This document shows, in pieces, positions 3,596 through 57,381 of a stretch of DNA of 64,000 nt. The notes below the pieces were generated by a model. The model did no database searches. It worked only from the letters and a program-made list of their open reading frames with translations, and was not told the DNA's origin. Positions within the stretch are counted from its first letter, which is position 1; each line of letters opens with the position of its first letter. Made by a program: the position numbers and the translations under genes. Origin of the DNA: Dryococelus australis (lineage: Eukaryota; Arthropoda; Insecta; Phasmatodea; Phasmatidae); the NCBI GenBank assembly GCA_029891345.1, contig CM057009.1, forward strand, positions 86,537,916 through 86,601,915, given 5' to 3'.

Positions 3596-6239
3596 GTAAG
3601 AACTTAAGATTGCATAGGTAATAATAGATAAACTTATAACCTTTTTGCAGAGGAATATTTTTTGTGTGTTCAGAATTGATATCAGCAATTTAGTTGAATT
3701 TTCAAATATAAAGCTTTTCAACTTATTCATATATAGTGTTTGTGCCCTCAATAAAAGGTAGTATTGGGCTGAGTCATTTTTATTCCATATTCTGTGTTAC
3801 TGTTAATTAAATATGGTTTGCTAACATTTGTTTCTTTTTTTTTTTTTTTTTTTTTTTTTTCTTCTGTTACTTTTGACTTCTTACTTTTTGTCATTTTAGA
3901 GTTTGCTGTACATGCAGTGTTTAATGTGGTAACACCTCTTCATAGTGATGAGATAGATTGTTTACTGCCACTTTGTAGTGTACAAAAATTAATTTTAATA
4001 CTAAAATTGTTATATAATATTTATAATTAAAAATGTTTTTTTAATTATTTGAATTAAAATGTTTTGACTATATTAAAATAATTAATACTATTTATAGTTT
4101 TGTGTATTAAAAACATTGACTGTATAAACAGATAATCATTGCTGCAAAAAAAATTTGTAGTTTATATGCTGTGTGTTTTTTTTTCTTTATAAATTTTAAG
4201 TTCTAGTTTTGTAGACTGTAGATAATGTGTTACTTCTTTGAATTCTCGCTGAAGCAGAATAAGAAGAGTTACTATAGTTATACATTACAAAGCATTAAGA
4301 GGAGCTAAACTGAAAAAATTAATTTTGGTTATATTTGAATTACAAGAAAGAAACGTTAATAATTTTTTTTTTTTTGTTTTCAAAAAAAAAAAAAGACAAT
4401 TTTTACATCACTATTTCTCATGAAAAGTGTGAATTTTAAAGTGCTCCATTTTACCTTAAATATATTACTCATTCCACATTCCATGTAACATGTGTTTTTT
4501 GACTGTGACAGGTTCTTGCTGCCATTGACATATTGCAGTACTTTGCTAAGGAATTGTCAGGGACAAATCATATTTAAAAAAGATGTGTTGCATTTAACGT
4601 TAAATATGCAACAAAGTCGGAGTGAACATCCCATGCAGACTTACAGCATGTTGATCATTACATTTAGGGATTATCTTTTTTATAGCCATAGAGTAATTAA
4701 AAAGTTAATTCTGTTCAGTGGCTGATAGGAAATTTCAGAATTCAACAGTAAAAAATATGTATTGATCAGCAAAATAAAATGTTTTACAACAAATAAAGAC
4801 AATTATGGAACTAATAAAATTCAAATTACTCTTTTACCCCTAAATTATGGTATGTATACTAGATAATTGTACCATAATAAAGTTACAAATAAGGCAGAAA
4901 ACGTTTTCGCTGTAGAAATGAACCCACCAAGAAAAATCAACGAAATAAAATCAACAAAAATGTTGTTGCTGGTGGATTATGAAATTGTGGCTTATTAGTT
5001 GACCTTGTTTACATATATATTTTAATGGTCCTCCAGAATTAGTATGTTTAAATTGTTTGTTTGTGTTGTTTCCGAAAGACTATATCAACCTGAAGTAGGC
5101 CAGGTCACAAAGTTCATTGTGGGATTCTGATGTCTCACAATACAGTTGTCGTAAAGTGGACAGACATCTTCCTGGAATGTGACAGGTCATAATACTTACG
5201 GTAATGCAGTTGCATAGAATGTAAATATATTTCTGTTCATGAACACTGTATTGTAAGAATCACTACATGGTATGATACAGTTGTGGTCCACACTTGTTGA
5301 CCCAGCACATCAGTCCTGCTGTCAACCAATACAGAATAAAATACAAACTCCGCATATGAAAATATTTATCCTTTAGATCAAGCTCTGGGACTCAACGAGT
5401 TGTCATTGAGGCAAGTAATTGTAGAAGTAGTACAAGAGTTACGAAAATAATGGAACACTTTGACTCGTAAATGATTGTCATGAGAAATAGTGAAGGCGTC
5501 CGGAGGTGCTGCTCATTTACTTGCCTCCCACTCCCATATATTTCCGGCTGCTTGTAGGGTGGGCAGCAGGTACAAAGAACCATGATTGCTGTATGCTAAA
5601 CACTTTATGGAAATTTTTATTTTAACACAAGCAGTTGTGTGGATAAAGAGTACAGTTAGGCATTACATATTGAATCTACTACCTTTGCTGTGCATGAATC
5701 TGTTTACGTGTTACACATCTCTAAAAAGAACACAAATACCAAGGTGCACAGCAACAGACAGCACATGGAATAGCAAATGCAAATAAACACAGGTAGTACA
5801 CGCATTTGAATATACAGGAAATAAAAAAATTCTTTTCTCTTTTTCTTAGCAAAATTAATTTTTGAAATTTTTATGAGGTAAATATGTTGGTATAGTCTGG
5901 AGTATGGCTCTGCTAGTACTGCAATAATTTCATATATTAAAGTTGGAATGTTATGAAGATATTCAGCAGGAGCGCCATTCATTGCAATTAAAAGGCACAT
6001 GCATCTGAGAAATTCTGAATTTAATAAACAGGCACACAGTATGGTGTTCAGCCCTATATTTCCCTTAACATGTAGTAGTTACCCAGTGTGATTTTACCAC
6101 TATTTTAGTGTGTATCTATCAGTGTTGCATTGCAATAATACTTTATCCACTGACGCATGATGCGCTCTGGACATATGCAACCATGACTGTGTCTCATCTG
6201 TGCATATCTACCAGAGTGTCTACAAGTTACATCCCTTGT

Positions 6240-12854: not shown

Positions 12855-14283
12855 CAGTAGACTCTCGATTATCCAAGATAATGGAGGGGATGATTGCAGC
12901 GGATAACCTAAAATTGTGGCTAATCCACATACTAAGAGAAAAATGAAGTTTTTCCAACACTAAGTTTTGTATGGTCGTAACTGAATACTGGGTGTTTCAG
13001 TGTGAAACCTATCCTATCCTTGACATACTACTGTATTTACTCGCATATTTTATGGCCTCGCATCAATTCTGTACCCTATTATTTATTAACAAATCAAGAA
13101 ATTTAAAAAATGCATAATTTATGCACCCCTGATTTATAACTTACAAAACCATAGTATAAAGTGTGTAGAATATGCGGGTAATCATGGTAGTTCTCTCATG
13201 AACATTACAAGAAATGCGCAGCTACAGTTAATACAAACAACGCAGCAGGATACATGTGGTGTTTATCGCCGAGTGGTACTGGAATCTGAAGTTGCATAAG
13301 AGAGAAGTCAGGCTGACGTCACTCCGTTGTTAGGCAACAGGCCATCCCCCCAAGAGGGGAAACAATGACGTGCAAAGCAAATTGCATGTCGCCCATGTCA
13401 CACACACACACACCTCCCACACTGTCCAGTGCATGCAGCATACAGACAGCTGTTTCAGTGTGTGGAAAACTGTTTAATATAGGAAACAAATTTTGCCTTC
13501 CATTCCCAGTTCTTCAAAAATATATTTGGCTTGTTTCATACATACACTAAGCATGACACTGGCATTCCAGCGACATGTTTCTGGTTAAACCACTCCAGCT
13601 TAGCCTTATCTAGTTCCATGCACATTGATAGTTTCATCGTTTTCCTATTCGCCAATCCACTTGTCGAATCCGCAATGCTCGCAAATGTAATAAGTTTGGA
13701 TGTAGTGTTTCGTATATCCCAAATTGTTGTTTTTCCCACTTCATACATATATAAAATCTGTTTTATTACACTTCTTTCTTCAAGTTCATTAATAATTTCC
13801 AGCTTCTGCTGTAAATTTAAAACCACATGTTTACATTTTGCAGACATTTTTCGGTTGAAAATGGGCAAACAAAACAGAACGTAACTACTGACTGGCAAGA
13901 TAAAACTGATGCTGACCATGGGAATGCGATACGCGGGAGGAATGCGGTGGTCGTGCCGGGACCGGCTTTACCGGCTGGCTGCAGCTAGGCTAGCGAGTTG
14001 TGTGGTGTTGTCAGCTCGCTGTAGTGCGACATACCTAACCTCATTGCGCCATCGGAACACATTTTGACGTGCATTTGCATAGATAAACAAACATATTTCA
14101 TTCCACAGTTATTTTCAGAGAGTACCTGTCATGAATTTCATTAGTTAAGATGGGCGTTTTATTAAACAACTTCATTCTGGCATTGTTTGTGTTAATTTCC
14201 AAAATTTATTTTTATCTTTCTGAATATGCCGCGGTTAAGCCGCAAAGCTAATAATCTGCTCGTGGATAATCGAGAGTCAACTG
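12855..14283 (-). mobile_element. pogo-type deletion derivative, complete ends
   Basis: The ends are inverted repeats of about 20 bp: the left starts CAGTAGACTCTCGATTATCC and the right reads the same on the minus strand with one change (CAGTTGACTCTCGATTATCC). TA dinucleotides at 12853-12854 and 14284-14285 are the expected target duplication of Tc1/pogo elements. At 1429 bp it is shorter than autonomous pogo elements, because the catalytic DDE domain is absent while the N-terminal DNA-binding part remains. A related copy with the same right-end structure is at 56755-57381. Confidence 0.8.
13536..13847 (-). CDS. pogo transposase N-terminal DNA-binding domain (truncated ORF)
   Basis: An open frame of 103 residues starts MSAKCKHVVLNLQQKLEIIN and continues ELEERSVIKQILYMYEVGKTTIWDIRN and KLITFASIADS. 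This is the psq/CENP-B-type helix-turn-helix of pogo/Tigger transposases, known from full-length relatives as KRKHVVLSLQQKLEIIKELE ... GKTTIWDIKKN. The frame ends after LVYV, where the second helix-turn-helix would begin; out-of-frame remnants of it (FEELGMEGK) follow. No DDE catalytic domain is present anywhere in the element. The protein could bind transposon ends but could not cut. Whether it is expressed cannot be told from sequence. The start at 13847 was chosen because family similarity begins there; an in-frame ATG lies upstream. Confidence 0.6.
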   Translation of the reverse strand: MSAKCKHVVLNLQQKLEIINELEERSVIKQILYMYEVGKTTIWDIRNTTSKLITFASIADSTSGLANRKTMKLSMCMELDKAKLEWFNQKHVAGMPVSCLVYV

Positions 14284-17700: not shown

Positions 17701-18818
17701 GGTCTCAAGAAGTCGCAAAAGAACTGAAACAAGAAATTTAATCCCACAATTGAAAAACTGGGTTTCAGTATATCACAGTCTGACAGTTGTTTGTATTGTA
17801 AAGTGTATGAAAGTGGCAATTTGTATGTGCTCTTATATGTAGATGACTTGCTTATCGTAGGAAACATCGAGACTGATATGAAACAAATAATAACTGAACT
17901 TAGTATTTGTTTCAAACTGAAGGATCTAGGTTGCATTGATACATACCTTGGAATATAAATTTATCATGATACAACAACCAGGATAACCAAATTCAATTAG
18001 ATATCATACTTACAGTGTGTTCTTAAGAAGTTTGGCATGTAAAACTGCAAGCCAATATCAACATCTATGGATTGCAACTTCAAAATTTGCCTAAGGAAGC
18101 AAAAGGGGGAGACAAGTCATTTGAAGCAAGGTGTCACAATTTAATTGGCTGTCTGATGTATGCAATATTGGATTCTAGACCTGATCTTTGTTGGCCTCTC
18201 AGTTTCTTGAGCCGATACCAAAGTCAAGCGAGTGAAGAACTGTGGATGGTGCTGAAATGGATTCTACGTTATATTAAGGGTACCATTGACCTGTGTTTGG
18301 TTTACAAAAAGAATCAATCACGAGAGCTTTGTGGTTTTGTAGATGCTGATTGGACAGGTGACCTAGAAGAAAGAAAATTGACAACTGGGTATGACTTCAT
18401 GTTGGGAAATAACACATTGCCTTGGAAATCCAAGAAACATCCCTCAGTTGCCCTGTCTTTCACAGAAGCAAAATATGTAGTGATGAGTGCAGCTGTTGCA
18501 GAGGCCTGTTGGCTAAAGAAACTGTTCCAGGATTTGCAATTTTCCAGCAACCAACCAGTAATAATTTTTGAAGAAAATGAGTCACAATCCATGTTGCAAA
18601 TAATGCTGGAAATAAAAGACTTAAACACATAGATGTCCATTATCATTTTGTCAAGGAAAAGTAAAGAGGAGGACTGATTTAACTTCACTGTGTGTGATCA
18701 GAAGACCATTTGGCTGATCAATTAATGAAGGCATTGCATCTGCCATCATTTACAAAGTTGAGAACAAGTCTTGGATTGATAAAATTGATTGTGTGTAGGT
18801 GTTTTTATTGAGGGAGGA

Positions 18819-19270: not shown

Positions 19271-20794
19271 TCTCCCCCTTTAATATATTTATATTACATA
19301 GTCTTTGAGTCTTGTGGAAGGGCATTTCTGCTGATTGGAATGAGTAGGAAAAATTTTCCCCCTCCCTTGGGGCGTGGGCACTGCAAACCCTTTGAAGAGC
19401 TCTGACGAGTTTTCACTGGCCGCTAGCGATGAGGGAGAACATACTGCTACTGGCCCTGCTAGTGCTGAGGGAGGACATCCCACTACTGTTACCATTGCTG
19501 CTGGCCTGTCCACTGCTGCTGGCCCATCCATGCTGCTGTCTGGGATTCTTGTGTCCCCTGGTGCCGATAGAAGTGTCTCAACCAGCCACTCCTTCAGCTT
19601 GATGCACCCCAATTTGTTTTTCTTGAATCGGTTGTCTCAAGCTGCTGGGGCTGCTCTCTCTTCCTCTCTTCATAATAGCTGTTACCACTGCAGAGCAACT
19701 GATCCTATGTCGTCGGCATGTCTGGCCATCGTTCCCCATCACAATGTATATATGGTGACCCACTTTAGACTGCAGTGTTCCTTGCTGCCATTTATGCCCT
19801 CCAGAGTAATTCCTGTACAGAAAAGCATCACCCTCACTGCAGTTGCAACTCCTTGTCTGAGGTACTTCCATTGGGACCTTTTGAGTCTTCTTTAGTGCAT
19901 GGGTTAACAAGATCCAGAGCGGTGCTCAACTTATGGCCCATGAGCAATTCAGCTTGTGACTGAAGACCTCCTGTACATGGCGTGGAACGCAAAGCAAATA
20001 ATGTTCAAGCTAACCTTGTCTGCCAATCACCTGAAAGGATTTTCTTTAATTTGCCCTTCTCTGTTCGCACCATTCTTTCTGCTTGTCCATTACCGGATGG
20101 GTGGAATGGTGTGGTTCTGATGAGGCTGATTCCATTTTTGGTGAGGAAGTCCCTCATTTCACATGACACAAAAGCAGTGCCATTGTCATATACAATATAC
20201 TGTAGCATACCATGATAACTGAATATGTCCCGGAGCTCCCATATCACGCTCGCTGTACTTTCAGATGATATTTTCCTGACTTCTAACCACTTTGCAAAGG
20301 AGTCTACTAGAATCAAAATCGTTGACCCTTAAACGGACCAAAGAAATTAATATGCACCTGGACCCAAGGTTTTGCAATGCTGCTTAATGGAATGTCCTGT
20401 TTAGGTGGATTTGACAGCAACTGCTGACATTCAGCGCATTCCCCCACCCATCGTTAAATGTCCTTATTCAATCGTGGTTTTGACCTTACCATCCCATCAT
20501 GAGCACCATGCAAAAACTCCCAACAACGAGGCCCTTAATGGCAACAGAATTACTACTCTATTACCCCAAAGCACACATCCTTTATACACTGACAGCTTAA
20601 CCCACCATTTTCGTATGGTTTAAAATTGTCCAATTTCATCTCATTCGTCCCCCCATGGCACACCAATTTCCGTACCTCTGATAAAATGGGATCCCTTCCT
20701 GTAGTTCTCTCAATCTCACTGTCAGTCACTGGACCATCTGGCATGGCTTCCAGCACCAGAACATCACCTACCACTGGAACCTGTACCATCTTTT

Positions 20795-21637
20795 GCACTG
20801 GCAGCCTGCTCAACACATCAACATGGCTGATGCTACACCCTGGCCTGTGCAGCAACTGATAGTCAAACATTGATAGCCACAAACTCCAACGAAGCAACCT
20901 GGATGACAGGATTTGCAATGTTTTCTTGGTGGAATTTAACAATCACATGAGGGGCTTGTGGTCACTTACTATAGTAAATGGGTGACTTGTTACATATTGT
21001 CGGAATTTACATACAGCAAACACTGTAGCTAGTCCTTCCTTGTTCACTTGTGAGTAATTTTGTTCGCTCTTCTGTGCACTGGCAGCCTGCTCAACACATC
21101 AACATGGCTGATGCTACACCCTGGCCTGTGCAGCAACTGATAGTCAAACATTGATAGCCACAAACTCCAACGAAGCAACCTGGATGACAGGATTTGCAAT
21201 GTTTTCTTGGTGGAATTTAACAATCACATGAGGGGCTTGTGGTCACTTACTATAGTAAATGGGTGACTTGTTACATATTGTCGGAATTTACATACAGCAA
21301 ACACTGTAGCTAGTCCTTCCTTGTTCACTTGTGAGTAATTTTGTTCGCTCTTCTGTGCACTGGCAGCCTGCTCAACACATCAACATGGCTGATGCTACAC
21401 CCTGGCCTGTGCAGCAACTGATAGTCAAACATTGATAGCCACAAACTCCAACGAAGCAACCTGGATGACAGGATTTGCAATGTTTTCTTGGTGGAATTTA
21501 ACAATCACATGAGGGGCTTGTGGTCACTTACTATAGTAAATGGGTGACTTGTTACATATTGTCGGAATTTACATACAGCAAACACTGTAGCTAGTCCTTC
21601 CTTGTTCACTTGTGAGTAATTTTGTTCGCTCTTCTGT
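20795..21637. repeat. three exact tandem copies of 281 bp
   Basis: Units start at 20795, 21076 and 21357, each with 'gcactggcagcctgctcaac', and end with 'ttcgctcttctgt'. By eye the three are identical along 281 bp. They lie inside the gypsy RNase H region. Identity this high next to LTRs that differ by over 10% means the triplication is recent or is an assembly artefact. Confidence 0.9.
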
Positions 21638-24721: not shown

Positions 24722-24981
24722 GGGGTAGTGGTGGTTTCGTGGTCAGACTGTTTGCCTCCCACCTTGGCAAATAGGGTTTTATTCCCAGCGGGTATTGCTT
24801 CCTGATTTTCGCACGTGGGAATCATGCCGGACGATGCCGCTTGTCTGCAAATTTTCTTGGGGGATCTTCAGTTTCCCCCCACCCTTGCATTTTGGTGCTG
24901 CCCCATACTCACCTCATTTCACCCTAATCGACTCTCAAGACCTCAATGTTAAGAGCTGCCCAAATCTTTCCACTCCACTCA
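24722..24981 (+). repeat. tRNA-derived SINE, nearly full length
   Basis: About 260 bp. The head resembles a tRNA-derived promoter, with GTGGTTTCGTGGTCAGA near 24733 and a B-box-like GGTTTTATTCC at 24775-24785. It is flanked by an imperfect 11-bp target duplication, TTTGCTAGAAG (24711-24721) and TTTGCTTGAAG (24982-24992). Related copies are at 2480-2572 (3' part only) and 53940-54130 (minus strand). tRNA-derived SINEs of this general kind are known in termites and relatives, but I cannot name the family. Confidence 0.75.
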
Positions 24982-36700: not shown

Positions 36701-37514
36701 AATAACATTTCTTCTACAAGATAGGTATCACAAGCATAGTAGGCTATATTTCTTCAGAGTAAAACGAGTCTTTTATGAGTTGTCCATGCAAATCTTCCAA
36801 ATATTATGTCCTTAGTTCATAGTGTTGCATTTCTGTGTTAAAATACAATTGGTTCAACCATAATTGCAATTACCCTTTGTCAAAAACCATTTTCATTAAT
36901 AAAATTCTTACAGAATATCAATTTTGGCCTTAGGCTTGCATATATATTTTAATTTTTCAACACTTTGTGTAGCAGTGAAATGCTTTCAACATTTACAGAA
37001 TGCATACCTATTGTGTGGTGCAGCCTATGGTTGTATGCAGATACGAGGCTAGGTAATATCTTCAGCCATTTGTAGCAGCCTTGAGTAGAAAAATGTTTAT
37101 ACATAACAATTTTCATAGTTATATTAAATCATTCCACAATTATACACTTAATTCTGCTCTGAGTTCTCACTGTTAAAATCTATTTGACAGTTTTGCGATG
37201 CTCCTTTGTCATGTAAAACACACAACATAACTCTCGCATTATCTTTTCCGCACTTGGATTTAACAGCTATGACCTACGTGAACTTACTGTATTAATCTAT
37301 CACTGTTAGTATATATTTAAAACCCTTGTTTACACTAGTGTAAGACAGCATTACAACTAAATCTGCTTGGTATAAATCATGCAAGCCAAACACACACACT
37401 GGACATCGCAGATAATTTTCCTGGCTGGGCAATGTAGTTTGTGTGTGATCCTTTTGCAATTTATGACATGAAGTGTGCTTTCAATTCATCAATGATATTA
37501 ATGATTTTGTTTAT
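33790..37514. other. no gene recognised; simple repeats
   Basis: A G+C-richer patch at 34740-35120 contains a CRE-like TGACGTCA near 34791. A CCA/CCG trinucleotide run lies at 36190-36256 and five GGCA/GCAG units at about 36562-36582. The rest is AT-rich without recognisable coding sequence. If FCHo continues, this lies within its next intron. Confidence 0.35.
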
Positions 37515-48201: not shown

Positions 48202-49555
48202 TACAAGATCATTGAATTATAACTTTATAGCAACAAAACTATTTAACGGAGTTGGCTGATTCTTAAACCAAATTGTATTGGAAATACGAAAGTTTTTTTT
48301 TGGGGTGGTTTTCGACAGTCGTACACCGATCTTGAGATTGCAGTAGGGGTGAGTGCACCATCTGGCATCTGCTCAAACCCCTCCAGTGAGATGGTGACCT
48401 CGCAGCAAAAAAGCACATTGTGTTCTGTGGTTCACAGAATTCAAGTCTGTAGTGACTGAGCCACATAATTTTAAATGGCAGCATCCGGGACAACATATAC
48501 CAGAACGGAGGGCTATTTGTCGTTGGGTTAAAAGTTTCCACAAAACTGGTACTGTACAGAAAAAACAATCATCAAGAAGGCCAAGAACGTTCAAAGAAAA
48601 GGTGGAACAGTGTAGTCTATCTTGTGTGTGCAGCCATAAACAGTCAACTGCCTGCGGCAGTTTGGAGCTTGGCATTCCAAAGACTACTGTGCAAAATGTT
48701 CTTCACAAACGTCAGAGATTACATGCCTACAAGATTCAACTGAGGCGTGAAATAAAGCCAGAAGATCATCCCAAATGTTTTGAATTTCCTGCTTTCGTGT
48801 TAAACAAAATGGACACAGAAATAAATTATTCAAATTGTGTGCTTTACAGTGACAAGGCAACTTTTCACGTTAATGGTTATGTTAATCGGCACAACTGCAG
48901 AATTTGGGGATCACAACAACCTAACGCAACTCATGAGTACTTTCGTGACTTTCCCATACTGAATGTGTGGTGTGGGTTGATGCACAATTGAGTTGTAGGG
49001 CCTTTCATATTTGCTGAAAAAACAATCATGGGCAACATTTATCTGGATATGCTAGAGTTTTATGTGTTCCCTCAGATTGAGGATATTGAACGACAAAGTT
49101 TAAACAGTGTAATTTACCAGTAAGATGGCACACTGCTGCATTGGAGCCTAGCCATGCGCAATGCCTCACCTGTGAGGTTTCCAAATGGTTGGATTGGGAG
49201 AGGTTGCTGTATCCCTTGTCCTCCTAGAAGCCCTGACCTTACCCCTCTAGACTCTATTATTTTGGGGATTTGTCAAGAACATTGTCTGTGAAGATTCGAG
49301 ATTTGGAGCATTTTTGTCAGGGAATCGCTGCCATTGAGACAATTATGCAGAGAATGCTCTTGAATACGTTGATGGAGGTCGAATATCACCTCGACATATG
49401 CAGAGCTGCAAATGGAGCACACATAGAAACATTTTAAGTTAAGCAGAACTTTGATTCTTCCTGTACATTTTGGTGCAAGAATCAACCAAATTGATCAAAT
49501 AGTTTCGAAGCTATGATTTTTTTAAATTGTACCAACCTTTTTCGATGATCCTGTA
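48202..49555 (+). mobile_element. DUF4817-type DNA transposon, short form, complete ends
   Basis: 1354 bp. The tips are inverted: TACAAGATCATTGAA on the left and TACAGGATCATCGAAAAA on the right read from the other strand. Similarity continues inward through AACTATTTAACGGAGTTGG / AACTATTTGATCAATTTGG and TGATTCTTAAACC / TGATTCTTGCACC, so each terminal repeat is about 70 bp. The transposase fills most of the interior. It is much shorter than the other two elements of this type in the window. Confidence 0.82.
48385..49440 (+). pseudogene. DUF4817-type transposase, long open central part
   Basis: The N-terminal part reads SQQKAHCVLWF, TEFKSVVTEPHNFKWQHPG and ERRAICRWVKSFHKTGTVQK, the DUF4817 helix-turn-helix. 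SSRRPRTFKEKVEQ, LGIPKTTVQNVLHKR and LHAYKIQLRREIKPEDHPK follow. The catalytic core has VLYSDKATFHVNGYVNRHNC (first aspartate), NATHEYFRDFPILNVWCGLM, FAEKTIMGNIYLDMLEFYVF, YQ.DGTLLH (second) and PPRSPDLTPLDS (third). The frame 48452-48991 stays open for 179 residues. Later stops and a frameshift break it, and the C-terminal block ends in a degenerate NGAHIE-like motif. It is the least decayed transposase in the window. Confidence 0.8.
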
Positions 49556-49923
49556 TATGTTTGCTCACTGAAATGTTTCACTGTTTTAAGTGCAAGATAC
49601 CATCACTATTTTACGCATTAAATAAAGTTTTATTTATCTAATTTCAATGTTTATTCATCTAATGTACTATATGTCTGAGAAATATTTACCAGTGTTCGTC
49701 AGGAGAACTAATGTATCACTAGTGCAATCTTCTGAGGAAAAACAGAAACCACAGTTGTAATTGGAATTCGACTTACAACGCACAAGCGGAATAATTAATT
49801 ATCACAAAATAAATTCTTGATGTTAGCAATACTACGTAAATACATGGCATAGTCACAGCAGAAAAAATCCAAACAGCACACATACAGTCATGATATGAGG
49901 ACAAGCTATCCAACAGTTCACAT

Positions 49924-50347
49924 TCACACTAGCAGTGTCAAGTCGTCTACTGGGACTGAATGGAAGGCTGCAGCTGCAGAAGCATATGCCCAAATAATGG
50001 TACTTCCGGCAGACAGGGAATGGTTTATGAGTTTATAGTGCTTGTCTATTGACTGAAAAATAGCACAACAGGAAACAACCCCCTCTCCCATCACAACCAA
50101 ATGCTCTCCATTGGGGTTGTCTAGGATGGCTCCATTTTTTCTTTTATTAATATTATCTAGATCTATGGAAAGCCCATCGGCGTACTCCTCCATGTTCTAT
50201 TGCTGTAGTAAAATTTTCATGAAACTTAAGGAACAGTAGAAGTTGTTTTTCAACGTGAGCCGAATTTTTAATGATTTTAAAAGAACCTTCACTGTATTTC
50301 AATGAACCTTCGTCTGCTTTTTTCTGTATCACCCCTCTCCCTGTCAC
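49924..50347 (-). pseudogene. unrecognised minus-strand coding-like segment
   Basis: Two overlapping minus-strand frames look continuous in content: 50347-50153 with GSLKYSEGSFKIIKNSAHVE and LFLKFHENFTTAIEH, and 50193-49924 with EEYADGLSIDLDNINKRKNG, DNPNGEHLVVMGEGVVSCCA and HYKLINHSLSAGSTIIWAYA. The composition is protein-like and less AT-driven than its surroundings. I do not recognise a family. It may be a frameshifted remnant of a mobile element or of a processed gene. No signal peptide or clear membrane segment is seen. Confidence 0.3.
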
Positions 50348-50949
50348 TCTTATTAGTGTGGAAGAGAGTTATCCCTGCTGCCCCTTCCCCCTCCTCATCA
50401 GTTCACACATCTTTGTACTATGCAATCATTTTTCAAACAAATTTTCCATATGTTGTATTTTATAATTTTATGTTATATTCCAAATATCAAGTATATGCCA
50501 TTTAATAATAAAAATAGATTTCTCTGATAACAACAAACATACATATATTCATCTGTAATCCTTTCACCTTTTAAATTCTATCAACTAATTTAAAAGTAAT
50601 TTGATATCCATTTCCATCGAGTAAAGGTTTTGCGAAAATGAATACCATGACATTGTTTAACAATTCACAATATTGATGTACCTATAATAAATATCTGTGC
50701 TAATTCTAAACACAATTGCATCAAAAAGAAATAAAAAGTAATTTAATACAGTATATAATTTAAAATACTGATTGATTTTTCCAGGTGCTAATTTCCTTGT
50801 TAAATTTATGATTTGTATTCTGTTTGACTTAAAATAATCTTAATTCACATCATCATTACGTGTAATAGGACTATCCACATTTGTTTACTCTTTTATTTTC
50901 ATAGCCATATTTATTAATTTTTTATATTAGTTTTGTTAATTAATGAATC

Positions 50950-53800
50950 ACCAAAAATTTTCATTTATATAGTAAAATTGAAGTATGTATGTAATGAAAA
51001 TAGCTATTCTGGGTATCAAACTTGCATGGCTAGTATTGTTTAGTCTTAGATTCAAAGCATCACCTTTTTTCACATCAAAACCTGTGTGATCTATCTTCTT
51101 GTAATTATGAACCACAATAAACTCATCAGTTGCTATGTTGAAATTGTATCTTGTTATGCTAAACACAGTTCCATCATTTAAAAAAAGGGTAGACTATTTT
51201 ATTCTTATCTAAAATTAAACTGTTCTTTTTGTTCATTCCATTTAGTAAATATTTGAAATACTGTAGTTTTCTCTCATTGAATTTTTCTCAGTTTTAAGTT
51301 TATAGGAGTTTGACAGAAATTAGTAGAAATGTGTTCAATGTAATCAATTAAGATTTAAAAATTACTTTTTTTTAGTTGATTATATTTTTTATTTTTGACA
51401 TATTTATTTAGTAAAATTTTCAAAGGAACATCTTTTTTAAAATGATCAAACTATTCCCTTGTAACTTGTTAACTAAAATTATATTTATGGGCAAAGAATT
51501 TTACTAATTTAATCTAGAATTAATGGTATTAACGATAATAACGTAATTCAATTTACAATTTTGGTCAAAATAATTTTTTTTTTGTAATATATTCATTGAA
51601 ATATAATTCAGAAACAATTTTTTGACCCTTTCTTTAATACCAAAATATTTATTAAAATAACTTACCAATGGTTTCCCAAACATATCCATTAAATTTTTAC
51701 TTAATGAAAAATATTATGTTAGAAAAATTATATCATTTTTAAAATCAAATCTAACACAATTAAACATAAATGACCATATATAACTGAAATGAAGCTCTTT
51801 ATTCCATCATAATTGAATAAAACAAGTAATTTATTAATTCACAATGAATGTTTCTACTAAAAGATGAAATAATAAATATTTTTGTTATTTTTGTAACAAC
51901 ATATTCAATGAATTCTAGGATTTGATATGTCCAAGTTAACAATGGTACATTCGTTTTATGAATTTTGTTTAACACTTCATCAGTTGTATAAACATCTCAA
52001 AAATGTTTAATTTTCAATTTTCTTTACAAAATTTTTAATACCAATATCTGATTGTGCATCTTTACCTGTGCAAGTCTTATTTCATTTTTGTCATCTTCCT
52101 TTCTTCTTAACAACCAATTCTTCTCCCTATTTATTTTACAGTGTTAAGTTATTTCTTGGTTGTTCTAGGTATATTTTATAACTTTCCTTGTTTTAAAACT
52201 GAAATATATATTTAACCAAGTGCTTCTAAAATTTCAATCAAAATGGGTAAAAATCCACAATGATTTAATCCACTCCAAGTTTTTTCTTTCAATATTTTTT
52301 GATTGTTGGCAAAGACAAAGTCAATAAAACTTCTTTACTCTCTTCTTTAAATTTTTAATTTTTTCTGTTCAACTATTTTTTTGGTTATGATATATATATA
52401 ATTATCTGAATTGTTTGATTGGTACACTGAAAGTTATGTTTTTTATCATAATTGATATTTTTTGAACATTTATAAATATCTTTATTTAATTAACATGTTT
52501 TATACCCCATAAAAGGTTGTTTTTTTTTGCAATCGTAGTTGAAGTGACAGCAGCAAAAGTAATTTTTCCATTAACAGGAGTATCTTTATCCACATTATTT
52601 ATTTGGCTTCTTTTTGCAAAATTTTATTAGCCTCATGTCAATATTCAAAATCTTTATGATCTCTATATGGAATGTCATAGTATATGCAGGCTTCATCTAA
52701 TTTATTTATTCGTCATTCCTCTTTCTAAACTTTTATTTAGTTTATTAAAAGGATTACAATAATTATAGGCGGGTAAATGCATTTCTGGCAAATTTAAGTT
52801 ATTTAGTGCCCAATTGATTATTCCTTTTCTGTGTTTTTCAGAACTCCAAAATGAATGAGCAATAACACTTAAAACTCTCATTAGATTTGGGATTATTGAC
52901 AACAAAATCAGATTATTTATTATTCAACATATTCGTAATGTTTATTTTTTCACTGTAATGACTTATTTCCTGTAATTACTTAACATGGATAACTAATAAT
53001 CAGTCAGTTAACTGTCTGAGGTCATCCATACATATGTATCTTAGGTAAATTAATATATATTTTATTTAATTCCTTTACCAGATTTTGGAGTTCTTGGTGA
53101 ATATGTTCCTTCAGGTATGTTTGGTTCAGTTCTAGAATATGGTCCTCCGTATATATTTTTGTTAAATTGGTTTGATTTTATGGTTGTACTTCCACCTATG
53201 ATTTGAAGTAATTTGGTTATTTGTATTTATATTCTTGGAATGTAGCATTTGTTGATAAAACTATTTTGGTATTATTATCTTAGTCATCATCAGCGTATTG
53301 TGCATTATGCAGTTAGTTATTCTTTCTATAGCAGTCTTTCATTTGGGTACATATTTGTTAATATTGATGTATATCCAGAATAAATTAAAAATGAACTAAT
53401 TTACCTTCAATATTGATTGTTTCTTAACGTATTAAGTCCTTTTGTTAATGTATACTCTTTACTTTCTACGGTAATGTTATTATTATTTATGCTTACTTTT
53501 GTATCTCTAATAAAAAAAAATTGTCTATGCCTCTTTAGCCATATTTTTCATTAATAACATTAATACTCTCAGAAATATCTTTACTCAGAAAAATTTTAGA
53601 ATCTTTTGATGGTTTGAATAATAATAGTTCTTCAAAATATTTTGAATTTTTTGTTTGAAGATTCCCTTTTTTTCTGAATCTGGTAAGGTGTAATCTGGGA
53701 ATAATTACATTTCAAATGTGAAGTTTACTTTGGCATCGATGGATAATCAGAATTTTTAACAGCAACTGGAACAAATGGTATTAAATTTTAATTTCTTGAG
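50950..53800 (-). mobile_element. Polinton/adintovirus-like element, fossil fragment
   Basis: Very AT-rich DNA with decayed minus-strand protein signatures. At about 52810-52600 is a PLA2-like segment of the kind found in adintovirus/Polinton and parvovirus capsid proteins: LNLPEMHLPAYNYCNPFNKL, then DEACIYYDIPYRDHKDFEY. At about 52060-51960 LKIKHF and DVYTTDEVLNKI, and at 51689-51610 DMFGKPLVSYFNKYFGI, resemble the start and the 'DSFG ... YFNKNFGI' part of adenovirus-type cysteine proteases. Their order and spacing suit one element. More remote peptides extend to about 53.8 kb. It is badly broken, with many breaks, and old. I found no terminal repeats, polymerase or integrase, so the ends are approximate. 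Confidence 0.5.
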
Positions 53801-53939
53801 CTAATTCCTCTACTTTTCTACCAATATTTTGCAATCCATGAATTAAAGGTAAAGCCTTCTTCTTGTTTCTTTCTTTCATTGTCATCTTCATGTGATTTTC
53901 TTTCGTAGTCAGCAAGTTTAGAAATTGTTTGCAAAAGTA

Positions 53940-54130
53940 AGTGAGTGAAGAGATTTAGAGAGCTCTTAACAGCAAGGTCTTGAGAGCCGATGAGGGTGAT
54001 TGAAGTGAATATGGAGCAGTGCCGGAATGAAGGGGCGGTGGAAATGGGAGATCCCTGAGAAAACCCGCCAACCAACTTCATTGTCCCACACAATTTCCAC
54101 TTGAGAAAATCCGGTGACCCGGCCCCCTGT
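53940..54130 (-). repeat. tRNA-derived SINE copy, minus strand
   Basis: Its reverse complement shares 'ctctcaagacct', 'tgttaagagct' and 'aaatct.ttcactcac' with the SINE at 24722-24981, plus the body 'gtgggac.atgaagttgg..' and 'ggatctcc.atttcc'. The tRNA-like head is lost or too diverged to see. Confidence 0.65.
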
Positions 54131-54365
54131 TCTTAAAAGTATTGGGAGTTTTGAAAGATAAATATTTCCTCCAACAGATCAGACTGCGTGAAATTTGAAT
54201 GTTTATAACAGCAGAATTGAATTTGACATTCCTACTGGTGATGGGTTTACTTTCCTGAAATATGCCTATATTTATGAAAAATGTTGACTTGCAAAAAGTG
54301 ACATAACTGAAAATTATGTAAAACTTGGTTACATTGATGTTTGTTATAACTTCTTTTCTTTTCAG

Positions 54366-54512
54366 TTTTCTCTATTAGAGATATCAAAACGTGAGCATAT
54401 AATGGCATCTATTCATAATCCTGGCATAACATCTACAATGATGAATGCTTTGTTAAGATCTACATTAGAGCAATTTTATTTAGAAATGAGTGGTGTTGAT
54501 CATAAATGTTGA
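54366..54512 (+). CDS. candidate terminal exon of an unidentified gene
   Basis: A strong 3' splice site, 'cttcttttcttttcag', is followed by 48 open codons and a stop. The peptide runs FSLLEISKREHIMASIHNPG, then ITSTMMNALLRSTLEQFYLE and MSGVDHKC. AATAAA follows 28 bp after the stop (54540-54545). That arrangement is what a last coding exon looks like. I do not recognise the protein. Read in phase 0 it could follow the FCHo exon ending at 27557, as an alternative short end, but nothing in the peptide resembles FCHo and a mobile-element origin is equally possible. Confidence 0.33.
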   Translation, partial: FSLLEISKREHIMASIHNPGITSTMMNALLRSTLEQFYLEMSGVDHKC

Positions 54513-54539
54513 TAAAATTCTGTACAATGTAATTTTCCA

Positions 54540-54545
54540 AATAAA
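54540..54545 (+). terminator. polyadenylation signal AATAAA
   Basis: Lies 28 bp after the stop of the candidate terminal exon. AATAAA is frequent by chance in DNA this AT-rich. Confidence 0.35.
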
Positions 54546-56095
54546 ATTCTTTATCCGTTGAATATCTGTTTGACTTTCTCAGAGATAACAAAGACATTAA
54601 TTGGAAAGGAGGCTTCAAGATAACTTTATTCACAATTCATCCAATAACAATTGTTTGTATTATTGTTAAAGAAAAAAAAATTTACAATACATTAGATAAA
54701 GATTATACTACAGCATGATAAATCAATACCCAAAAACTAAAAATAATATGGCTAATTATAGAATATGAAGCTAATACATTTAATGCAGTAAAATAAATAA
54801 AATTTAAAAATTCAAATTGCTTTTATTACTAATATTTTTTATAAAAATAAATACTTCAAGATTCAAATACATTTAACTTTGGTATAAAAGATTGGTTTTT
54901 AAAAATTTACAGTTTTATATGCCTGACTTTGTAATAGTTGTTTTTTAAATGAATAGAAAATATAATCCTAATCAATATGTTCATGCTTCTATGTTTGATC
55001 ACTGCAATATAAGAAATATTTATGTTAAAAATGAAAGGAATGAAATATTTTGCAAAGAAAACTGGACTGTTATATATTGATCAAGATTTGTACTTAATGT
55101 AATATAGTATTGATATTCAAATAAATTTTACTTATAATTCCTTGAAAGAGAGGATTACTTAGTATATTTTATTAACAATTTAATTTTTTCATAATGAATG
55201 GATTGTAATGAAATATTAATTAAACTTAATAACATTAACTGAATAAAAACTTAAAAAAAAATTAAAATTATTTGATTCCTGGTGTTTATTTGGTTACGAA
55301 CATTAATTTTCTTGTACGGTTGTCAATTTTATCGTATGTATGTAAAATTTGACTGTATTTGGAAAGTTATTTTACTGAAGAGATACTACCTGATATTGAC
55401 TTGGGAGTTTGCACAAATAATTGGGTTATATATGAAGTACAATGGTAAAGTAAAAATTTATTGATGTAATGTTAAATATGATTTTGAGTACATTTCAGGT
55501 GAAGATTTGACTGTGCCTTATATTTTTTGTTTTTATATAAAGATCTCTTATACCAGGGATTAGTATAAAACTGAGAATGGCTAGTCAGTTCACCATAGTG
55601 AATGTTCTAAAAATTTAATTTTTTTATGTATTAATTTTTTTATGATCAAAACTTTTTAGTGCATATTTTTATAGTGAATATTTTTCTGCATCATATTTTT
55701 AACTTTACTTTCATCATTTTCTATTCCATATTTGTGCCAATTTTTCACTGCACATGTTATTATCCACTTTGAGTAGTGAGTGTATAATGTGCAAGTTCTG
55801 GTTCAGTCTTTTTTTTTTCAAATTTATATATATATATATATATATATATATGACTTTTCCATAAAAAGCACAACATTTTGAGTGAAGGAGGTAAAGCAGA
55901 AATGTTGTGTTTTTATTTAAAAAAATAATGATTTTTAAATAAAATTTGAAACTCTAAAGAATTTGAGCCATAACATACACATTATTAGCCAACATTTCAA
56001 ACAAAAAGAAAGGATTATGTGATCACTTTCCTGTCTCTCTATTGGTGTATGTATGTGTCCTCCCTTTTCAATTTTTGAAAGCGTCAACCGTGTTT
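54546..56095. other. very AT-rich DNA; a short TA repeat
   Basis: Short + strand peptides near 54580-55060, such as INWKGGFKITLFTIHP, may belong to the neighbouring Polinton-like fossil, but I cannot confirm this. A TA run of about 14 units lies at 55824-55851. No host gene is seen. Confidence 0.3.
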
Positions 56096-56099
56096 CGCC

Positions 56100-56750
56100 A
56101 AACTCGGTACCTATACAGGATGGAGCTGAATTCGAACGACAAACTTCATAAGGATATTTGTTATGCAAAATCAACTAAATCTTAAGAGTCAAATAAGTCA
56201 ACAAAAACTGAGATTTTGGAATGTATTTTTGCGAAATATCGGAAACCTGGTGAGATGAAAGTACAATTCGCAGAACACACTCAACCTGACCTACTTAAAA
56301 CATAGAAGTTTACACCACCTGCTGCAGTGCAAATAGCTTGCGAAATTTGGTACAAATTTGTCAATTACTTTCCGAGATATTACATAAAATCTTTATTTTT
56401 TCATGTGGTATATGTTACAAAATGGCAGAAAAAAGATGCTCCATGTAGAAGCATTTGATAATTATAATATAAACAGCCAACATACAAAATTAACTTCAAA
56501 TTTATTGTATGGTTTTGACAATACTGTATACTAAGCTAAGATGCCTATGTTTCTGCCATTTTGAAAATTAGTATCTGATATACTTAATATATGCAATTTA
56601 ACATCATCTGCCGCAGCACTATTTGTTTTACGAATTTGGTAAAAATCAGTAAATTCTTTCCCATGATATGACCAAAATTTTATTTATTCATATATTGCTA
56701 TTTTACAAAATGGTCGGTAAAAGAAGCTTTGTGTAGTTACAGTTCGTAGT
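56100..56750 (+). repeat. noncoding repeat family, several monomers
   Basis: One block (56110-56280: 'ggatggagctgaattcga', 'gattttggaatgtatttttg', 'gaaagtacaattcgc') recurs at 58978-59178 in the same orientation at about 78% identity. A second block occurs twice here, at 56310-56420 and 56600-56715 ('catcatctgccgcag', 'aaatttggtacaaat', 'ttacaaaatgg'), and in weaker form at 58825-58930. No ORF. It may be an old tandem array or the noncoding part of an unknown element. Confidence 0.65.
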
Positions 56751-56754
56751 TGTA

Positions 56755-57381
56755 ATATAAACTGCCAGCATATAATTATTAGTAAACTTGAAGGAGGAAG
56801 TGTAATAAAGCAGCTTTCATTTATGTATAGAGTGGGAGAAACAGCAATTTGGGATATACGAAACAATACATCCAAACTTATTAAGTTTGCAAGCAGTGCG
56901 GACTCGACAAGTGGATTGGTGAAAAGGAAAACGATGAAACTATCAATGTGCGTGGAACTAGATAAGGCTATGCTGGAGTGGTTTAACCAGAAACGTGCCG
57001 TGGGAACGTCAGTGTCAGGCTTAGTATGTGTGCGAAACAAGCACATTATTTTTTTGAAGAATTGGGAATGGAAGGCGAAACTTGTTTCCTACATTAAACA
57101 CTGTTTTTCACACTCTGAAACAGGTGGCTGTATGCCACACGCACTGGACAGTGTGGGAGGTGTGTGTGTGAGATGGGCGACATGCAATTCGCTTTGCGCA
57201 TCTTTGTTTCCCCTCTCCAGGGGGAGAGGATGGCCTGTTGCCTAACAATGGAGTGACGTCAGCGTGACTTCTCTCTGACGCAACTTCAGATTCTAGTACC
57301 ACTCAGCGATAAACATCCGTGATTTTGGGTTATCCGCTGTAATTGTCCCCTCCATTATTGTGGATAATCGAGAGTCAACTG
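56755..57381 (+). mobile_element. pogo-type deletion derivative, left end missing
   Basis: The right end GATAATCGAGAGTCAACTG with TA at 57382-57383 matches the pogo copy at 12855-14283. The + strand reads VGETAIWDIRNNTSKLIKFA, ADSTSGLVKRKTMKLSM and LDKAMLEWFNQKRAVGTSVS, the N-terminal HTH of pogo transposase, in a frame open to 57245. Past that point both copies continue with the same non-transposase sequence to the terminal repeat, so they share one internal deletion. The left part, including the start codon and left terminal repeat, is gone. Confidence 0.75.

Follow-up and report, generated by a model that had tools for sequence, protein, structure and literature searches.

A truncated Polinton-like fragment and its multicopy relatives with an altered PLA2 calcium loop in an insect-like genome

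Introduction

The DNA analyzed here, referred to as the window, is a stretch of 64,000 nucleotides (C17:86537916-86601915) from an assembly of 3,415,067,245 bases in 646 contigs. A first-pass annotation ascribed six short peptides of this window to an old, strongly decayed insertion of the Polinton/adintovirus type, with a PLA2-like segment and two signatures of an adenovirus-type protease. This raises the question of whether these peptides are remains of a single virus-like element and, if so, to which kind of element and to what family of copies they belong. All six were located in minus-strand frames: PEMHLPAYNYCNPFNKL at 52738-52788 and, in a different frame, DEACIYYDIPYRDHKDF at 52647-52697, together with LKIKHF (52000-52017), DVYTTDE (51976-51996), DMFGKP (51669-51686), and SYFNKYFGI (51636-51662).

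Results

Layout of the window fragment

Ten translated pieces of the window were compared with the Pfam database. The sole family match came from a 73 amino acid piece containing PEMHLPAYNYC, which matched Phospholip_A2_4 (PF08398) below the curated cut-off (E = 0.0044; 17.7 bits, with 23.9 required); the remaining nine had either no match or scattered matches to unrelated families, none with an E value better than 0.03. When positions 49501-56500 were scanned against Pfam in six frames, with X at stops, PLA2 (0.073) and a zinc finger (0.021) were the only matches, the latter taken as a chance match, and Rfam and tRNA scans of the window found nothing. The profile search that the annotation had proposed for 50-55.5 kb recovered PLA2 weakly, but integrase, ATPase, and polymerase were not found there.

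As most of the window pieces lack a family match on their own, their likeness to viral peptides could be attributed to chance in AT-rich DNA. This explanation is extremely improbable in view of the comparison with ten 9.2-kb stretches read around PLA2 copies of the same 3.4-Gb genome, which were chosen from well-matching places, most of them having long open frames, and therefore lean to better-kept copies. All ten match the window by DNA in the PLA2 region, with a longest alignment of 68.8% identity over 1,724 columns. In addition, sister-copy proteins were used as tblastn queries against window positions 50001-56000, and their best bit scores were compared with the best of 100 dinucleotide shuffles. 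Seven of the nine queries beat the shuffles, most of them by far: the two halves of the capsid reached 119 and 85.9 bits (best shuffles, 22.7 and 25.0), the PLA2 gene 108 (25.4), the protease 44.7 (25.4), the tail-like gene 38.5 (25.8), gene X 36.2 (23.5), and a small ORF 35.0 (26.2). The coil and integrase queries, with 19.2 (26.2) and 23.9 (25.8) bits, scored below the shuffles. The protein matches are collinear, running through capsid, gene X/PLA2, small ORF, protease, and tail-like gene.

The region between about 50.4 and 55.2 kb is thus very probably a dead, truncated, and frameshifted copy of a Polinton/Maverick (adintovirus-like) element, a virus-like type of DNA that inserts itself into host chromosomes, and represents about 4.8 kb of an element of 12-13 kb. 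Its features are:

55098..55208, strand not applicable: weak DNA traces past the capsid gene, towards the left end (strict alignment, blastn)
54198..55071, plus: remains of a major capsid gene of double jelly-roll type, in three frames (tblastn with two L011 capsid pieces)
53874..54133 (approximate), strand not applicable: span missing from the copies, which match to about 53.87-53.90 kb and resume at 54134
53936-54125, strand not applicable: interspersed repeat inserted between the capsid gene and gene X (77.4% match to L022)
53425..53678, minus: gene X, the N-terminal part of the PLA2-bearing gene, in pieces (tblastn with an L012 ORF, 35% and 52% amino acid identity)
52520..53303, minus: PLA2-bearing gene in frameshifted pieces, several frames (tblastn with an L010 ORF, 36-79% amino acid identity; present in 10/10 copies)
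about 52584-52788, minus: PLA2-like domain (Pfam PF08398 on 52702-52923)
52215..52348, minus: small conserved ORF (tblastn with an L011 ORF, 48-56% amino acid identity)
51725..52017, minus: remains of a putative adenovirus-type protease gene (motif at 51976-52017; core at 51725-51955, with stops and another frame)
51068..51686, minus: tail-fibre-like gene (N-terminus at 51636-51686; C-terminal part at 51068-51348)
50428..51021, minus: weak DNA traces between the tail-like gene and the integrase (strict alignment vs 40 shuffles)

The first reading had missed how far the fragment extends, as well as the capsid gene on the plus strand at 54.2-55.1 kb. By tblastn, amino acid identity to the L011 capsid is 61% at 54198-54506, 41% at 54656-54907, and 69% at 54898-55071, and the region 54134-55080 also matches several copies by DNA. 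Identity is 40-42% to the L010 ORF for the protease core and 31-38% to the L012 ORF for the C-terminal part of the tail-like gene. The small conserved ORF is one that we presume to resemble a minor capsid protein.

Both edges of the fragment were examined with a strict alignment test, used instead of an earlier lax one that had given high shuffle scores (only L012 stood out, z 6.4). Towards the left end, the traces at 55098-55208 were found with four of the ten copies (L009, L010, L011, and L018; z 3.1-7.1), each above the best of 40 shuffles, and the L009 match was also obtained by blastn (E = 1e-5). At the other edge, traces exceeded all 40 shuffles at 50835-51021 with L012 (z 8.0) and at 50428-50476 with L015 (z 5.3), L009 against 50407-50514 (z 3.0) did not beat its best shuffle, and altogether 4/10 copies scored at or above their own best shuffle, one of them in the wrong order of place. 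The stretch 50428-51021 is likely the right edge of the fragment; between 49000 and 50250 the ten copies left no trace in the strict alignment. Terminal repeats are not recognisable in the window copy, no match to integrase, ATPase-like, penton-like, or polymerase-like pieces was found adjoining the fragment, and the right half of the element is missing.

A decayed rve-type integrase remnant lies elsewhere in the window (36967-37384, minus strand; E = 5e-14 to the integrase of the element). As a candidate for the missing right half it was rejected, given its identity of 32-40%, its about equal nearness to a second family (see below), and the lack of an adjoining element gene. The interspersed repeat nested in the fragment has a second member at 24741-24981 (76.6% to L022). 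Among other repeats, a 281-bp unit occurs in tandem at positions 20794-21637, where its three copies are identical (100% matches), within a stretch that by eye resembles gypsy-type pol; remains at 48398-49437, 13539-13967, 56721-57242, and 18027-18629 resemble, also by eye, Tc1/mariner transposase, pogo/Tigger-type ORFs, and copia-type pol.

Genes of the sister copies

The sister copies gave much stronger family matches than the window. Their PLA2-like domain matches Pfam at 1.7e-13 and 2e-13, above the cut-offs; copy L009 encodes an RVE-type integrase core (PF00665, 1.5e-11, above the cut-off) that also matches solved integrase structures (7.4e-7); and the second-half capsid query from L011 matches the double jelly-roll family PF21738 (7.4e-7; 29.1 bits vs a cut-off of 27), with no match among solved structures by sequence. 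Because the sister copies carry PLA2-like, integrase, and double jelly-roll capsid domains above Pfam cut-offs, we consider the Polinton-type identity of the window fragment secure. The proposed Polinton/adintovirus type, its PLA2-like segment, and its strong decay were all borne out, the window pieces changing frame and containing stops.

Matches of the sister copies to ATPase, chromodomain, and polymerase families were weaker. A piece of L015 matched Pox_A32, the FtsK/A32-type ATPase family (0.0025; 17.8 bits vs a cut-off of 22.8), and Zot (0.067), and a second ATPase-like piece, from L012, had no Pfam match. Directly after the integrase of L012 lies a match to Chromo (PF00385; E = 6.9e-4; 19.9 bits vs a cut-off of 25.1). 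Polymerase motifs were seen by eye, and one of eight polymerase-region pieces matched DNA_pol_B_2 (PF03175) weakly (E = 0.027), with no supporting match to the polymerase pieces among solved structures or NCBIfam; an OTU domain gave no match in the scanned pieces of this region, which are short and decayed. The conserved ORF beyond the ATPase-like one is penton-like by eye only, its three pieces having no family match. In L012, the tail-like ORF matches a PHROG tail-fibre family at 7.7e-5.

The protease ORF had no Pfam match in the sister copies and a far-below-cut-off reductase match in NCBIfam (4.1e-4), otherwise chance-like ones. Catalytic-looking H, Q, and C motifs were seen by eye, and in one structure-library search the only match was the African swine fever virus protease S273R (0.36, weak), which was also the best match of a three-row profile (0.1) and ranked below antibodies in another structure search. 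The family name, resting on these motifs and weak structure-library matches, is therefore putative. More generally, protease, polymerase, penton-like, and small capsid-like ORF are names that we assume from motifs and general resemblance more than from family matches.

Regarding the two protease signatures of the first-pass annotation, LKIKHF..DVYTTDE held up, DVYTTDE aligning with NVYMIDE or NVYVIDE in 4/4 copies, but DMFGKP..SYFNKYFGI marks where the gene after it, the tail-fibre-like one, begins. At the protease end, the counterpart of DMFGKP is TDIFGKPLI or TDTFGKSLI in three of four copies (L009, L017, and L018), and in L010 the motif aligns with the final protease codons; in L009 and L017 the equivalent residues share the frame of a tail/coil match beginning 48 bases later.

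Across the ten stretches, including each query's own, PLA2 was present in all, capsid, small ORF, protease, and tail/coil in nine each, and integrase in seven; in L016 the PLA2 gene alone was found. Among the matches listed, at least seven PLA2-capsid neighbor pairs were counted by eye, 1-2 kb apart and all divergent. L025, adjoining copy L017, holds a second, distinct Polinton-like family, with PLA2 (1465-1767 as fetched, minus strand; 1.2e-7) and integrase (4211-4708 as fetched, plus strand; 3.4e-8).

A PLA2 domain in a capsid protein is also known from densoviruses, and the VP1 protein of parvoviruses carries such a domain (PMC9505059), so that the fragment might be thought of as an integrated densovirus with a domain of this same Pfam family. 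However, the PLA2 gene is accompanied by an integrase of retroviral type, by a capsid gene of double jelly-roll type, and by inverted repeats with a 6-bp target-site duplication (TSD), and the six-frame Pfam scan of 49.5-56.5 kb found no parvovirus replication protein: among the marks of a densovirus (Parvoviridae), namely an NS1 helicase and a single jelly-roll capsid protein with PLA2, only PLA2 was retrieved in positions 49501-56500. Because integrase and double jelly-roll capsid genes are linked to the PLA2 gene, a densoviral origin is very unlikely.

Having favored a Polinton-type element, we can outline how a live copy would work, following known Polinton biology: its own protein-primed polymerase would copy it, its DNA would be packed into capsids matured by the protease, and a retroviral-type integrase would insert it into the chromosome. 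The window copy would then have been deprived of its right half, invaded by a short repeat, and degraded through frameshifts and stops, and it probably has no function now.

Element ends, length, and comparison with known elements

The annotation had called for a search for younger relatives with terminal repeats, and two copies with terminal inverted repeats were found. In the first (L012/L021; C3, 12,943 bp), both termini read AGTAGATATATA, with AATGAA directly outside both as a perfect 6-bp TSD; in the second (L015/L024; C1, 12,097 bp), both read AGTAGATGTATAGTGCCGATCC, with no clean TSD, which was therefore seen in one of the two end-complete copies. The element termini read AGTAGA. The inverted repeats are 69.6% identical over 398 columns and 78.6% over 387 columns (K2P 0.16 and 0.19), a divergence corresponding to about 30 million years, as an order of magnitude only, if one assumes yearly generations and, for insects, about 3e-9 changes per site in each of them. 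The start of contig C1 carries CCTAA repeats (294 in 2 kb), which the other five ends examined, one reading N where shown, do not. Telomeres of TTAGG type are the arthropod type, and the insect origin proposed for the DNA is consistent with this single contig start, without being established by it.

Polintons are described as 15-20 kb long (PMC4028283), and both measured copies are shorter. This length is not a strict requirement, because the adintoviruses associated with Drosophila measure 13.3-14.6 kb (PMC8363768). As described there, the latter have PolB, integrase, capsid, protease, and FtsK genes, to which integrase and capsid genes and putative polymerase, protease, and ATPase genes correspond in the present family, but they are possible viruses from reads, whereas here fixed, decayed chromosomal copies are found, the comparison being one of description and not of sequence. 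The Mavericks of Spodoptera frugiperda carry, per element, an integrase with chromodomain, an ATPase, a protease, PolB, and a PLA2-bearing capsid-linked protein, to which integrase and PLA2 genes and putative counterparts of the others correspond here; no PY/double jelly-roll protein is reported for them, whereas here a gene with this domain adjoins the PLA2 gene, and the PLA2 loop of the present family reads YxGxF (PMC5803895). Vertebrate Mavericks resemble our elements in terminal inverted repeats, AGT-type ends, a 6-bp TSD, and mostly defective copies, but are about 17 kb long, compared with 12-13 kb in our two measured copies, and end in (AGT)2 instead of AGTAGA (PMC8097293). Hundreds of adintovirus-type remnants (453) are also described from ticks; these are all integrase, whereas the present copies hold capsid, PLA2, protease-like, and integrase genes (PMC10675110). 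Adintoviruses have been defined by an integrase with a C-terminal chromodomain, a PolB with an N-terminal OTU-like domain, and a hexon recognisable by BLASTp against reference adintoviruses (PMC11071296). The sister copies may belong to adintoviruses proper.

Divergence and selection

The window copy differs from each of the ten copies by a K2P of 0.31-0.34, compared with 0.18-0.28 (mean 0.24) in 36 pairs among the copies, and appears to be an older or faster-decayed branch. When the window was compared with a reference copy, the first, second, and third codon positions differed by 0.312, 0.199, and 0.376 in the C part of the capsid and by 0.310, 0.285, and 0.477 in the PLA2 gene, third positions being highest in all seven window genes compared; these counts are approximate, as a few of the alignments overlap or join one repeat to another. 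The corresponding values among the other copies were 0.264, 0.161, and 0.261 for the capsid C part, and in coil and tail third positions likewise exceeded first positions little or not at all. Selection on the proteins is suggested for part of the divergence and not for every gene, because the capsid C part, coil, and tail have little or no such excess among the copies.

Copy number and mode of spread

A 20-base degenerate PLA2 motif had 774 + 766 = 1,540 exact matches genome-wide (backward control, 1), and an overlapping motif with the loop YCGPFTK had 821 + 828 = 1,649 (backward control, 0). The two sets overlap, they do not include decayed copies such as that of the window, and sister families may account for some of the matches; a safe statement is that the genome holds over 1,500 motif-bearing copies. 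Searches with element pieces gave at least 150 places for PLA2 (150 of 9,494 candidates scored), at least 151 for the capsid (150 of 14,623), and at least 150 for the integrase (150 of 28,059). Because larger Polinton expansions are known in protists, this scale is not without precedent. In vertebrates, Mavericks are described as low in copy number in most genomes, and the hundreds of defective copies called perplexing in two species are exceeded by both exact-motif counts (PMC8097293).

Instead of a resident element transposing, a free adintovirus that infected the germ line repeatedly could have produced such a number of copies. In favor of this, the literature describes adintoviruses as viruses that integrate (PMC11071296, PMC10675110), the copies have retained capsid, protease-like, and tail-fibre-like genes, and the excess of third- over second-position differences in most genes points to proteins under selection while the lineages diverged. 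On the other hand, finding more than 1,500 copies with the motif in a single genome is in keeping with multiplication within it, third positions of the capsid C part, coil, and tail differ among the copies little or no more than first positions, and a viral contig collection scanned with the window PLA2 piece and the PLA2, protease, and capsid ORFs of the copies yielded no free relative. Taking both sides into account, we regard repeated infection as unlikely, though a serious contender.

The PLA2 calcium loop

Parvovirus PLA2 is characterized by the motifs YXGXG and HDXXY (PMC9505059). In the present family, eighteen loci (L001-L018) representing 14 distinct copies, four of them seen twice, were read across the calcium loop, and all 14 have YxGxF in place of YxGxG, with an F after the P of the loop. 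The HDxxY motif is kept in six of the nine copies whose frame is open that far and changed in three; the window piece has, in another frame, YYDIPY at this place. The second family in L025 retains a canonical GPG loop. Judging from the motif, the loop change may entail loss or change of PLA2 activity.

Discussion

The kind of element found in the window is already known, and the notable aspects are the size of its expansion and the change in the PLA2 loop. As a tentative proposal that we hold possible rather than probable, a Polinton lineage would have reached several thousand copies in one insect-like genome, a fixed YxGxG-to-YxGxF change would have modified or abolished the calcium-dependent lipase activity of its virion-linked PLA2, whose fold would thereby be reused, and a gene resembling phage tail fibres would provide a spike or a protein for host recognition. 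The family provides a large set of dated fossils with which to ask if elements of this kind spread like viruses or like transposons; the PLA2 loop change poses a testable question about the evolution of their entry enzyme.
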